Shown: positions 34,318 through 38,214 of the stretch, piece by piece
Layout: the number at the start of each line of letters is the position of its first letter
Numbering within the stretch: position 1 is the stretch's first letter
Assembly: GCA_030528555.1 (NCBI GenBank)
Contig: JAUMYQ010000012.1
Location: 1-48,351 of the forward strand
From: Porphyromonadaceae bacterium
GTDB lineage: Bacteria; Bacteroidota; Bacteroidia; Bacteroidales; Porphyromonadaceae
Direction of reading: 5' to 3'
Length of the DNA: 48,351 nt
Notes under the pieces: generated by a model
Told to the model about the DNA's origin: nothing
Databases searched by the model: none
What the model saw: only the letters and a program-made list of their open reading frames with translations
Position numbers and translations under genes: made by a program

Positions 34318-36813
34318 TTACAAAGGGTCTATGTCGAATAGGATGCGTACTCGAGAGCTTTCTGGCATCGAGGAGCGAAGCTGATTTAGTGCAGTCGAGA
34401 AGGCTATTCTCTCGGCAGGGAATGCCTCATGATAGGGCCGGCGGCAGGTGATTTGGCGCAAGTATTGGTTGTCTATCTTAGTTACAGATAGGTTTTGGGA
34501 CGATGATACTCGGCCTGGTAGGAGCTGTCTCAAGATCTGAGCGAGATGTATGGCTGTACGCTCCACAAGTGCTTCGTCGAAGGCCCTGAGTTTGATGTAG
34601 GTTAGTCGGCAGAATGGGGGGAAGAGGTTCAGCTCCTCTCGGCGCTCGGCTAGCTGTCCCTTGATGAATGTGCGGTAATCGCCACGCTCTAAGCTAAGCA
34701 GGAAGGGGTGCTCGTCTTGCCTGGTTTGGATGCACATCTGGATGTCTCCCTGCCCCCCAAGGCGGAGCTGTAACTGGCGTAATAGCTGATAGGCGCGCTC
34801 TTGAGCTCGAAAGTCGGGGAAGCCGATCATGGCATCGAGATTAATCACACCTACCAATCCAATACGCTCCCACACGGGTTGCCCTTTGATGAGCTGGGTG
34901 CCAACGATGATGTCCACATCGTCTGCCTCGAGTCGTGCCTCGAGCTCGGCTAACTGTCGCCGTGATTGCAGGCTATCGCTGTCGATACGCAATACGCGTC
35001 TCTCGGGGAATAGCCCCTGCACCTCTTCCTCTACTCGCTCTACGCCGTGACCTATAAGGCTTAGGGCTGGGATACGTCCCCATGGTTTCTCCACCTCGTG
35101 CTCGCCACAGCTAGGGCAGGAGGTTGGGCGAGGCTGCTCGTAGGCGCAGTAGTGACAGTGCATACTCCGTCTTTGGCTGTGATAGGTAAGGCTAACGGAG
35201 CAGTGAGGGCAGGGGATGCGCTCCTTACAGTGCCAGCAGTAGATGCACGGAGCATAGCCTCGCCTATTCTGTAAGAGTAGTACACGCTGCCCACGAGCTA
35301 GGGTTTGTTCTATTTGCTCTCGGAGTGTCCAGCTGACACTCTGTCCGTAAGGCAGTCGTCCTGCGGACTGTTCGCTATCTAGATTGATGATGTTTATAGG
35401 CACGCTGAAGCTGGGCTGCTCAGGCTCCGAGACGGTAAGTAGCTCATACTTGTGGCGTAGCGTATTGAAGAGGGCTTCGGCCGAAGGGGTCTCGGAGGTT
35501 AGCAGCACTTGAACCCCTCGAGTATGACCTAGCCAAAGAGCTACATCTCGAGCGTGATAGAGTGGTGCCGTGAATTGTTGCTTATACAGATACTCTTGCT
35601 CTTCGTCTACGATGATTAGCCCAAGGTGGCGTAGAGGGAGCAGGACGGCAGCCCTCGTGCCAACGATGACGCAAGGTTGTGAGCTGCGAGCAAGGCTCAG
35701 GTACAGCTCCGAGCGTAGATGCTCGCCCAGCAAACTATGGTAAGCCCATGCCTTGCCCTCAGCGATCGCCTGCACACGCTGCAGAAAGTCGTTACTAGCT
35801 GCTCCTACAGTAGGTGTGGGGGTAAGGAGTAGCACCTGCCGCCCCTCACTCAGCACACGCTTTATTTGCCCCAAGATATAAGCCTCACGGCTGTCGCTGC
35901 GTCGAGTGTAGAGTAGTCCTACTGGGCTACTGAAGGAAGCTTGGGGTACAACCTCAAGAGCTTGCATAGGGGGTAGAGCTGAGCTAAGTCGAGGCTCCTC
36001 TCGCTCCTCTTGCCGAAGGATGCCCCGCCCCTCCAGCTGGCGCAGCAGGTTTTGTCTACGGCTATCGCCCTGAGTGAGGGTCGCTCTCTTGACCATCCCT
36101 CCTAGCCCCTCTGCACTATCCGACAGCTGCTCCACAAGCTCGTAGAGTAACTCGAGTTGCTTGGGCGCACGGTGAAGGAGCTGTTCGGCACGTCTTAGGC
36201 CAGCTTCGTCCCCAAACTCGTCCGCTATACCTATATATGTAGTGCGCTTGGGTCGGTAACGCTCCGTAAGTCGCTCCTCGGTGTAGATTGCTCCCCGAGC
36301 AATGAGCTGAGTGATAGCCGCAGGGCAACCTCTGCCTAGCCTTAGCCTTAGCTGCCCCATCGTGAGCCGACCGCACTCCTCAGCGGCTAGAGCCTCTAGT
36401 ACAGCCAGCTCCGTATGGCTATGCGTTCCCTTGGCAAGGTAGTCGCCATCGAGCATTACCTCGGTTTGGCTCTCGGGAAGCAGCCCTCCCGGCAGGGCGG
36501 CACGCATCACTTGTCCGAGGGAGCATTGGTAGTAATGAGCCAGAAACTCCCATAGCTGGAGGGTCGAGGCATCGATGAGTGGTTCATCGTCCAGTGCGCT
36601 CTCGATGGTCTTGACCTTGGTGGGGCTAATACTTTCGGGGAGCGCACTCGTGAGGCTATGCACGATGCCTGTGTAGAACCGCTTAGGCCCGAGGGGAGCG
36701 ATCACCCTCATCCCCGGGCGCACTACCGCCTCCCCGAGCAGTGATGGCTCGGGGAGGCGGTAGTGATACAGCTCGGACAAGGCGAGCGGTAGGATGAGCG
36801 TGGCGTAGATCAT
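34318..36813 (-). CDS. priA: PriA-like replication restart protein with degenerate helicase motifs
   Basis: PriA recognises stalled forks and reloads the replicative helicase. The 831-residue protein is full length. The N-terminal DNA-binding domain is typical, and the zinc module is intact with its CxxC pairs (CWHC, CPHC, CHYC, CPSC; residues about 526-570). The helicase motifs are not: Walker A, normally GxTxSGKTE, reads YTRRSDSREAY (302-312), lacking the Gly-Lys-Thr; motif II DEEH reads DEEQ (403-406); motif VI QVxGRAGR reads QLQLRLGG (680-687). ATPase activity therefore seems lost. The start codon follows the miaB stop directly. The reading frame is undamaged, so it is not a pseudogene by frame. 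Identity is confident; catalytic loss is inferred. Confidence 0.88.
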   Translation of the reverse strand: MIYATLILPLALSELYHYRLPEPSLLGEAVVRPGMRVIAPLGPKRFYTGIVHSLTSALPESISPTKVKTIESALDDEPLIDASTLQLWEFLAHYYQCSLGQVMRAALPGGLLPESQTEVMLDGDYLAKGTHSHTELAVLEALAAEECGRLTMGQLRLRLGRGCPAAITQLIARGAIYTEERLTERYRPKRTTYIGIADEFGDEAGLRRAEQLLHRAPKQLELLYELVEQLSDSAEGLGGMVKRATLTQGDSRRQNLLRQLEGRGILRQEEREEPRLSSALPPMQALEVVPQASFSSPVGLLYTRRSDSREAYILGQIKRVLSEGRQVLLLTPTPTVGAASNDFLQRVQAIAEGKAWAYHSLLGEHLRSELYLSLARSSQPCVIVGTRAAVLLPLRHLGLIIVDEEQEYLYKQQFTAPLYHARDVALWLGHTRGVQVLLTSETPSAEALFNTLRHKYELLTVSEPEQPSFSVPINIINLDSEQSAGRLPYGQSVSWTLREQIEQTLARGQRVLLLQNRRGYAPCIYCWHCKERIPCPHCSVSLTYHSQRRSMHCHYCAYEQPRPTSCPSCGEHEVEKPWGRIPALSLIGHGVERVEEEVQGLFPERRVLRIDSDSLQSRRQLAELEARLEADDVDIIVGTQLIKGQPVWERIGLVGVINLDAMIGFPDFRAQERAYQLLRQLQLRLGGQGDIQMCIQTRQDEHPFLLSLERGDYRTFIKGQLAERREELNLFPPFCRLTYIKLRAFDEALVERTAIHLAQILRQLLPGRVSSSQNLSVTKIDNQYLRQITCRRPYHEAFPAERIAFSTALNQLRSSMPESSRVRILFDIDPL

Positions 36814-38214
36814 TTAGTCTTCCTTGGGTGCCCAGCCCTCGGCTGGGCGTAGAGGCTTGCCGATAAGGGTAGCGGAGGTTGCACTCTCGATGATTACCTG
36901 CACGTATTGCCCTACTCGGTAGCCCTGCTTGTCGAAGACGACTACCTTATTCTGCTGCGTCCGTCCAAAGAGATGCTCACGGCTGCGCTTGCTGAAGCCC
37001 TCGACCAACACCTCGACAGTTCTACCCACATCGGCAAGATTGCTCTCGAGGGAAAGTTTGTTTTGTAGATCTATCATCTCCGAGAGGCGGCGCACCTTGA
37101 CCTCTTCTGGTACATTATCCTCGAGATGCTTGGCAGCATAAGTGCCTGGCCGTTCGCTGTATTTAAACATGAAGGACGAGTCGTAGCGTACCTCTCTCAT
37201 CAGGGAGAGTGTCTCGTGGAAGTCTTCTTCCGTCTCGTCATGGAAGCCACAGAAGAGATCACTGCTGATGGCGCAGTCTGGCATCACTGCTCGGATGGCC
37301 TCTACCCGATTGAGGTACCACTCCCTCGTGTAGCCTCGCTTCATAAATTTGAGGATGCGGTTGCTACCGCTCTGGGCCGGGAAATGGATATGGCGACAAA
37401 TGTTGGGATACTTCGCCATTGTGGCAATAGCTTTGTCGTCCATGTCCTTGGGATGGGGGGATGTGAAGCGGATGCGCATCTCAGGTACTGCCTCGGCTAC
37501 GGCACTAAGCAGATCACCGAAGTCGTAGATGCGCTCCCCACTATCGTAGCGGTAGGAATTGACGTTCTGCCCAAGGAGCGTCACCTCCCGATAGCCCTTG
37601 TCGGCCAGGTCCTTCACTTCGTTTAGAATACTGGCTATCTCTCGGCTACGCTCCCGACCTCGGGTGTAGGGGACGATGCAATAAGAGCAGAAGTTGTTGC
37701 AACCACGCATGATGGAGACGAAGCCTGAGATATGCACTCCGCTGAGCTTGAGTGGCATGACGTCTTTGTAGGTCTCTTGTGTGGAGAGCTCTACATTGAT
37801 AGCCTTCTCTCCTCGCTCCACTGCTCCGATGAGGTTCGGCAGGTCGAGATAGCTATCTGGGCCGACCACGAGGTCTACGCCGTGCTTGTCGATGAGCTCC
37901 TCGCGCACGCGCTCGGCCATACAGCCGAGTATACCAAGGATCATCTTGCGCTTGTGCTTGCGACGGATGGCATTGTAATACTCGATGCGAGCGATGACTC
38001 TCTGCTCGGCATTTTCACGTACCGAGCAGGTGTTGATAAGAACTGCGTCTGCCGTCTCGGCATGCTCGGTAAGGTAGAAGCCGTCCATCTGCATGATGCT
38101 GGCAACCACCTCGCTGTCGGCTACATTCATCTGGCAGCCGTAGGTCTCGATGAAGAGACTTCTCTCTACTTTGGACAGGTCGGATTTAGAGTCCGATGTC
38201 GGATTTGAGTTCAT
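36814..38214 (-). CDS. miaB: tRNA-2-methylthio-N6-dimethylallyladenosine synthase
   Basis: Radical SAM methylthiotransferase that converts i6A37 to ms2i6A37 in tRNAs reading UNN codons. The N-terminal domain holds the three Cys of the auxiliary 4Fe-4S cluster (TYGCQMN, NTCSVRE, ILGCMAE), and the radical SAM motif is RGCNNFCSYCIVPYTRGRE. The C-terminal TRAM domain (VEVLVEGFSKRSREHLFGRT) binds tRNA. The length of 466 residues is normal. It forms a two-gene operon with priA, whose start codon abuts the miaB stop. No clear promoter was found upstream. Confidence 0.95.
   Translation of the reverse strand: MNSNPTSDSKSDLSKVERSLFIETYGCQMNVADSEVVASIMQMDGFYLTEHAETADAVLINTCSVRENAEQRVIARIEYYNAIRRKHKRKMILGILGCMAERVREELIDKHGVDLVVGPDSYLDLPNLIGAVERGEKAINVELSTQETYKDVMPLKLSGVHISGFVSIMRGCNNFCSYCIVPYTRGRERSREIASILNEVKDLADKGYREVTLLGQNVNSYRYDSGERIYDFGDLLSAVAEAVPEMRIRFTSPHPKDMDDKAIATMAKYPNICRHIHFPAQSGSNRILKFMKRGYTREWYLNRVEAIRAVMPDCAISSDLFCGFHDETEEDFHETLSLMREVRYDSSFMFKYSERPGTYAAKHLEDNVPEEVKVRRLSEMIDLQNKLSLESNLADVGRTVEVLVEGFSKRSREHLFGRTQQNKVVVFDKQGYRVGQYVQVIIESATSATLIGKPLRPAEGWAPKED

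Follow-up and report, generated by a model that had tools for sequence, protein, structure and literature searches.

A family-wide predicted PriA pseudohelicase in the Bacteroidales, with motor motifs lost and fork-binding modules kept

We analyzed a 48,351-nucleotide stretch of DNA (hereafter the window) from a Porphyromonadaceae bacterium (assembly GCA_030528555.1, contig JAUMYQ010000012.1, positions 1 to 48,351 of the forward strand), which encodes the restart protein PriA on its minus strand (34318..36813) as a frame of 831 codons with an ATG start and zero internal stops. The genome (1.78 Mb in 42 contigs, completeness 85.58) holds one match above the cut-off of the NCBIfam PriA model TIGR00595, and it is this protein, predicted here to be a pseudohelicase, which scores 348.8 bits against a cut-off of 230.35 over a match from profile position 15. 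Its parts, all on the minus strand, are the 3'-DNA-end binding domain (3'BD; residues 7-108, 36490..36795, Pfam PF17764, E 8.4e-23), the helicase lobe HD1 (residues 299-478 as used in our domain test, with approximate borders, 35380..35919), the cysteine-rich zinc region (CRR; residues 526-569, 35107..35238, Pfam PF18319, E 6.8e-10), the second part of the helicase lobe HD2 (approximately residues 576-699, 34717..35088) and the PriA C-terminal domain (CTD; residues 733-830, 34324..34617, Pfam PF18074, 27.7 bits against a cut-off of 26.9, E 4.8e-6). The zinc region retains eight cysteines (C526, C529, C535, C538, C553, C556, C566, and C569). Structures that match the protein by sequence are PriA entries, the best being 4nl4 and 6dgd, and thirteen other NCBIfam PriA-type models score it under their own, narrower cut-offs. 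The Pfam DEAD model also stays below its cut-off (23.0 bits against 26), with a match that begins at profile position 30.

Aligned on E. coli K-12 PriA, from which all residue correspondences are taken, the protein keeps the acidic D-E of motif II and lacks two other features expected of an active helicase, motif I and the final arginine of motif VI. The former motif I (Walker A) reads YTRRSDSREAY (residues 302-312, 35878..35910), with T303, S308, R309, and E310 at the columns of E. coli G224, G229, K230, and T231, and the pattern G-x4-GK[ST] occurs nowhere in the protein. Motif II reads DEEQ (residues 403-406, 35596..35607). In motif V (GTQLIKGQ, residues 638-645, 34879..34902) the GTQ is kept and the register of the next K-G is shifted, as is seen from GTQLIKGQPVW against GTQMVSKGLDF in a canonical relative (L084). 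The former motif VI reads QLQLRLGG (residues 680-687, 34753..34776; LRLGG, 683-687), against a canonical QVAGRAGR. The initial annotation of this gene had named the changes in motifs I, II, and VI as marks of erosion in an undamaged 831-codon frame with eight zinc-site cysteines, and alignment bears out all of these readings. DEEQ is nevertheless not diagnostic of erosion, because the clostridial PriAs L037 and L039 combine DEEQEY with an intact GSGKT; we therefore rejected it as a sign of a dead helicase. Five congeners carry H at its last position.

The DNA-contacting parts look different. The aromatic-rich-loop region (YKQQFTAPLYHARD, residues 410-423, 35545..35586) is kept, including its YKQ and YHARD residues, and in the 3'BD window residues Y18, G42, and K68 correspond to E. 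coli Y18, G37, and K61, three residues with a presumed role in that domain, with H17 in place of D17. A mapping of the SSB-tail pocket gave no result, since the positions tried, 82, 86, and 697, hold L, D, and S in E. coli PriA and so do not suit its numbering. The Trp186 linker motif (PMC8323898) was uninformative, since the region is poorly aligned and Trp is not among the commonest letters at the column in any group.

The loss of motifs extends well beyond the window. We searched 38 family genomes in two genera at E ≤ 1e-30, 26 of them from the Porphyromonas genus, which includes species of the mouth (22 of these 26 are ≥90% complete with low contamination), and 12 from a second genus. PriA was matched in 37 of the 38, including every genome of the first genus, where 25 of the 26 matches lie above the cut-off and that of G023 slightly under it. 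Relatives were translated from stop to stop, such that their N-termini may be overlong; frames of 818-879 amino acids are open in 25 of the 26 genus genomes, and the remaining one is a 335-amino-acid piece at a contig end. All 26 genus and 11 second-genus PriAs were read, with one C-terminal fragment (L025) leaving 25 congeners readable for motif I; P. loveana (L035) and P. gulae (L036), both Porphyromonas, give BLAST rows identical to those of genus members L012 and L011, which links the genus to Porphyromonas. The pattern GxxxxGK[ST] is found in none of the 25 readable genus PriAs and in none of the 11 from the sister genus, and the last arginine of motif VI is missing at its column in all 26 and all 11. 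The GT of motif V is kept throughout the first genus (26/26), and its G is lost throughout the second (11/11). The eight zinc cysteines are all present in 26/26, 11/11, and 36/36 PriAs of the genus, the second genus, and other Bacteroidales, respectively. At the aromatic-rich-loop columns (E. coli Y327, K328, Q329, and R338) the 25 readable congeners have Y in 23, K in 25, Q in 24, and R in 25. The letters that replace the lost motifs differ among family members; at the Walker lysine column the congeners have R in 3 (as R309 in the window), K in 11, and other residues in 11. A loose motif VI pattern matched congener L030 elsewhere (residue 366), by chance, and fails to match L056 and L058, which carry the ordinary variants GRCGR and GRVAR.

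Because the frame is undamaged and every readable family relative is degraded at these sites, we reject sequencing error or frame damage as the source of these changes, as had been argued initially. The searches that could have overturned a helicase-dead PriA likewise returned no canonical GKT or GRAGR in close relatives and no second intact priA in the own or other family genomes at the thresholds used, the second genus having been listed only at E ≤ 1e-30 (12 genomes) or 1e-15 (7 of the 12). Each genus genome has at most one TIGR00595 match above the cut-off, along with weaker matches in other frames. In the own genome the sub-cut-off pieces fall in four frames of 1123, 697, 710, and 540 amino acids; a RecG search identifies the 710-residue frame as RecG and gives a sub-cut-off, Mfd-sized match in the 1123-residue frame, and the 697-residue frame is probably RecQ-like, to judge from its size and profile range. 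The family shares two features with the D. radiodurans type of pseudohelicase, motifs lost taxon-wide and a gene retained in single copy, with one of the 38 genomes (G034) lacking a match.

To place the border of this loss, we turned to 198 sampled Bacteroidales genomes, three of them from the window family. PriA was matched at 1e-30 in 192, and the other six, from other families, gave no match at 1e-30 or at 1e-15. From the other Bacteroidales families we read 36 PriAs from 36 genomes (20 picked from listed rows and the 16 weakest scorers), the remaining genomes of the order being judged by score alone or by score and profile start. Four of the 36 are fragments that lack motif I; of the remaining 32, GKT is present in 31, and the final arginine of motif VI is kept in all 35 sequences readable at that position. 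In the phylum, 294 of 296 genomes matched PriA (G351 and G521 did not), and the window PriA ranks weakest of all at 5.2e-105; next come a genome that has two matches, the better at 2.2e-113, and one at 2.1e-143. The exception in motif I (L052, from G127, a 1.2 Mb genome, ~99% complete, of another Bacteroidales family) is a 667-amino-acid PriA with NISLGEIE at motif I and VEKVKRQ at motif VI that keeps its zinc cysteines and an N-terminal 3'BD-like stretch; its loss of motifs is apparently independent of the family's. A congener of G127 (G228, 2.7 Mb) has an ordinary strong PriA score (6.6e-172), by which it was judged. Another PriA (L049, from G148) keeps SGKT and DEEH and reads GTRMISRW at motif V and SEKACRI at motif VI, an erosion in a different order.

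In a tree of 69 PriAs (25 from the genus, 11 from the second genus, 29 from other Bacteroidales, and 4 as outgroup), both genera share a single branch (length 0.59, SH-aLRT 99) that lies within the other Bacteroidales PriAs. This was a quick search without bootstrap that leaves 18 of 66 inner branches open and has several long end branches, such that the exact placement is unsure; the nearest relative of the window species is 51% identical. The position of the clade inside the Bacteroidales led us to reject horizontal replacement, with the same caution about long branches and placement, and a single ancestral loss followed by further drift appears to be the simplest reading.

Conservation has been lost where the motor lies. 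We compared mean pairwise identities among 25 genus members with those among 20 other Bacteroidales, using bootstrap 95% intervals and RecG as a control for depth. RecG is equally conserved in both groups (0.583 against 0.574; difference -0.023 to 0.042), and wherever it was found in the genus (25 genomes) its GKT is intact. HD1 identity is 0.384 in the genus against 0.615 outside (difference -0.263 to -0.198), HD2b (residues 576-699) 0.426 against 0.616 (-0.230 to -0.144), and HD2a 0.368 against 0.490, with an interval that excludes zero. The intervals include zero for the 3'BD (0.442 and 0.465), WH plus linker (0.286 and 0.281), CRR (0.506 and 0.539), and CTD (0.361 and 0.383). Over the long term, only the helicase lobes have lost conservation. 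The ratio of nonsynonymous to synonymous substitution (dN/dS; Nei-Gojobori) was computed for 15 chosen pairs, of which six had dS above 1.6 or undefined and nine were usable (dS 0.16-0.56). In the usable pairs it is 0.097-0.147 for PriA and 0.040-0.103 for RecG, with PriA exceeding RecG in eight of the nine, and by domain it is 0.07-0.19 for HD1, 0.07-0.24 for the 3'BD, and 0.02-0.15 for the CTD. PriA is under purifying selection, lobes included, that is somewhat weaker than that on RecG; the ratio of about 0.1 in these genus members is far from the value near 1 that recent decay would leave.

DnaB was found in 37 of the 38 family genomes, the miss being G020, which is 54% complete; in one congener the dnaB match (G007:C33:175487-176811) is split into two pieces, one with two in-frame stops, which is either a true disruption or an assembly error. 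DciA was matched in 29 of the 38 at E ≤ 0.001, with 26 above its cut-off, including 25 of the 26 Porphyromonas genomes and the own genome (27.8 bits against a cut-off of 24). No PriC was matched in the 38 genomes, and among 14 controls only E. coli matched. No PriB match above the cut-off was found in the 38 either, the one match below it (G000, 25.5 bits against 72) being probably an SSB-like OB fold.

Collectively, we consider it very probable that the window gene encodes a genuine PriA, present in single copy, that no longer binds or hydrolyzes ATP and hence, as we propose, has no helicase activity, and that selection maintains it as a scaffold for recognizing forks independently of ATP. 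Beyond the loss of the motor motifs and the retention of the fork-binding modules, the steps of this scheme are ones that we infer. ATPase activity would be truly absent, having been lost once, in an ancestor of the family. The 3'BD, CRR, and CTD, with the retained aromatic-rich-loop residues, would still grip the fork and its lagging-strand single-stranded DNA (ssDNA), and their retention is compatible with a role in fork recognition and as a putative loading platform. The scaffold would bring in DnaB, the replicative helicase, either by direct contact or with the help of a loader, for example the DciA-like protein that most Porphyromonas genomes match. Forks whose lagging arm is duplex would need a different helicase to open them or would fall to a different pathway. 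By analogy with characterized PriAs, the family protein most likely binds forks whose lagging template is already single-stranded, serving as a passive platform for recruitment. The initial annotation had proposed that "this lineage" fixed a helicase-dead PriA; the relatives, dN/dS, and copy-number checks, as far as they were run, agree with the helicase-dead part, and the attribution to one lineage is too narrow and too recent, as both genera share the loss.

Several observations weigh against this scaffold reading. The window PriA's own genome is 85.6% complete, and one second-genus genome (G034, 89% complete) gave no PriA match at E ≤ 1e-30 or at 1e-15, yet has DnaB, which may reflect further divergence, a real loss, or an assembly gap. 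The second genus has lost the aromatic-rich-loop R338 and mostly has R at the K328 column, and DciA was matched in just 4 of its 12 genomes. The usable dN/dS pairs overlap, drawing on seven genomes in two clusters (G006/G008 as one pair, and eight pairs among G001, G021, G023, G024, and G025) that do not include the window species, and in them HD1 shows no more relaxation than the 3'BD or CTD. Whole-protein PriA identity is lower in the genus (0.378) than in other Bacteroidales (0.465), but low PriA identity alone proves nothing, because PriA is less identical than RecG in 190/190 pairs of other Bacteroidales as well as in 300/300 genus pairs, although the genus shows the wider gap. Lastly, the Walker lysine column holds K in 11 of 25 congeners and motif II keeps D-E in 13 of 25, such that some species may retain residual nucleotide binding.

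This last point is the basis for an alternative that we regard as unlikely, in which a divergent PriA remains an active ATPase through an unconventional nucleotide site. The retained D-E, the invariant GT of motif V in the genus, and a basic residue, K or R, aligned to the Walker lysine in 14 of 25 congeners are what such an enzyme might preserve, but the P-loop has lost its glycines and T/S together with the final motif VI arginine and the K-G register of motif V, and the replacement letters vary within the family. Moreover, the K230R substitution alone is described as abolishing the ATPase of E. coli PriA (PMC4504706).

A shift of function, with the PriA fold retained for another role such as a general ssDNA or fork-protection protein, is more doubtful still. 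Long branches, altered lobe sequences, and family genomes with no PriC and no PriB above the cut-off would suit such a shift, but no other PriA was found in these genomes that could serve restart, and the zinc ligands are exactly conserved and the 3'BD conserved, modules that are tied to fork recognition in the E. coli work described in PMC10175261. That PriA is dispensable in the family and is becoming a pseudogene is very improbable: the lower identity, the dN/dS above that of RecG, and the missing match in G034 point that way, but the long open frames, a dN/dS of about 0.1 with HD1 included, eight cysteines in 37/37 family PriAs, and a 3'BD, WH, CRR, and CTD conserved no measurably less than in canonical PriAs do not resemble decay.

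An extension of the scaffold reading is possible, if on balance doubtful. The two helicase lobes, freed from ATP hydrolysis, might have come under new selection for another use, as a protein-docking surface to which DnaB is recruited, either directly or together with DciA, giving a minimal, ATP-independent restart primosome without PriB or PriC; the idea arises because HD1 dN/dS is low in the usable pairs despite the missing motifs.

Directly upstream of priA, with no gap between its stop and the priA start (36813/36814), lies a 466-amino-acid open reading frame on the same strand (36814..38214), presumably miaB-like from its sequence. This neighbor stands beside priA in 1 of 75 priA loci, the window's own; most flanks are short.

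Motor-dead PriA is an already known kind. PriA of Deinococcus radiodurans is described as a "pseudohelicase" with no ATPase or helicase activity that binds fork DNA and DnaB (Lopper et al., 2015; PMC4504706), and like that protein, the PriA of the window family has lost its helicase motifs taxon-wide while keeping the DNA-binding architecture; the ATPase loss is demonstrated for D. radiodurans and predicted here. The Deinococcus lineage is also described as being without clear priB and dnaT homologs (PMC4504706), and the window family is likewise without PriB above the cut-off. The two differ in extent: Deinococcus-Thermus is described as having R for K in GKT and poorly matching motifs I and II, whereas the window family has lost the entire P-loop, the motif V register, and motif VI (a comparison that leaves aside Deinococcus motifs V and VI). 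Unlike Deinococcus, which belongs to another phylum and whose PriA is not on our tree, the window clade is nested inside canonical Bacteroidales PriAs, and its origin is therefore probably independent.

Canonical Bacteroidales PriA is closest by tree and has the same domain order and zinc ligands; it differs by keeping GKT (31/32) and the motif VI arginine (35/35). PRK14873 models, which we take to represent actinobacterial PriA, score the window protein at 112.9 bits or less, against 415.3 bits on a PRK05580 model, a comparison at the level of scores and not of residues. Actinobacterial PriA, which is not known to keep the helicase motifs, may be a further motor-dead case; it is described as a smaller, very divergent putative ortholog (PMC1193525). 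E. coli PriA shares the domain order, eight zinc cysteines, and 3'BD, and the R at the window's K230 column recalls the K230R mutant; wild-type E. coli, however, has the motifs together with PriB, PriC, and DnaT, whereas the family genomes gave neither PriC nor PriB above the cut-off (0/38 each; DnaT was not searched). The ATPase and helicase activities of E. coli PriA are reported as dispensable for PriA-PriB restart in vivo (PMC10175261). E. coli PriA is also described as touching every fork arm, with a CRR that shifts on fork binding and forms a pore around the lagging-strand ssDNA. In Caulobacter, a partnership of DciA with PriA has been raised as a possibility (PMC9825169).

Our literature search, judged mostly from listings and passages and with most subscription papers outside it, found no report of PriA motif loss in Bacteroidota, and the main text of a study of P. 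gingivalis essential genes (PMC3547785) does not mention PriA. As far as that search tells, a family-wide Bacteroidota case with a sharp phylogenetic border appears to be new, and it is probably of independent origin. It would be a second clear case, in a different phylum from Deinococcus, of a restart PriA apparently stripped of its motor by evolution, and its border is sharp, with canonical relatives surrounding the deficient clade within the same order. The "helicase" annotation of PriAs in this family calls for caution. Taken together, the family offers a natural separation-of-function system in which to ask what purpose the PriA helicase serves if cells live without it, and which partner loads DnaB where PriB and PriC are not found.

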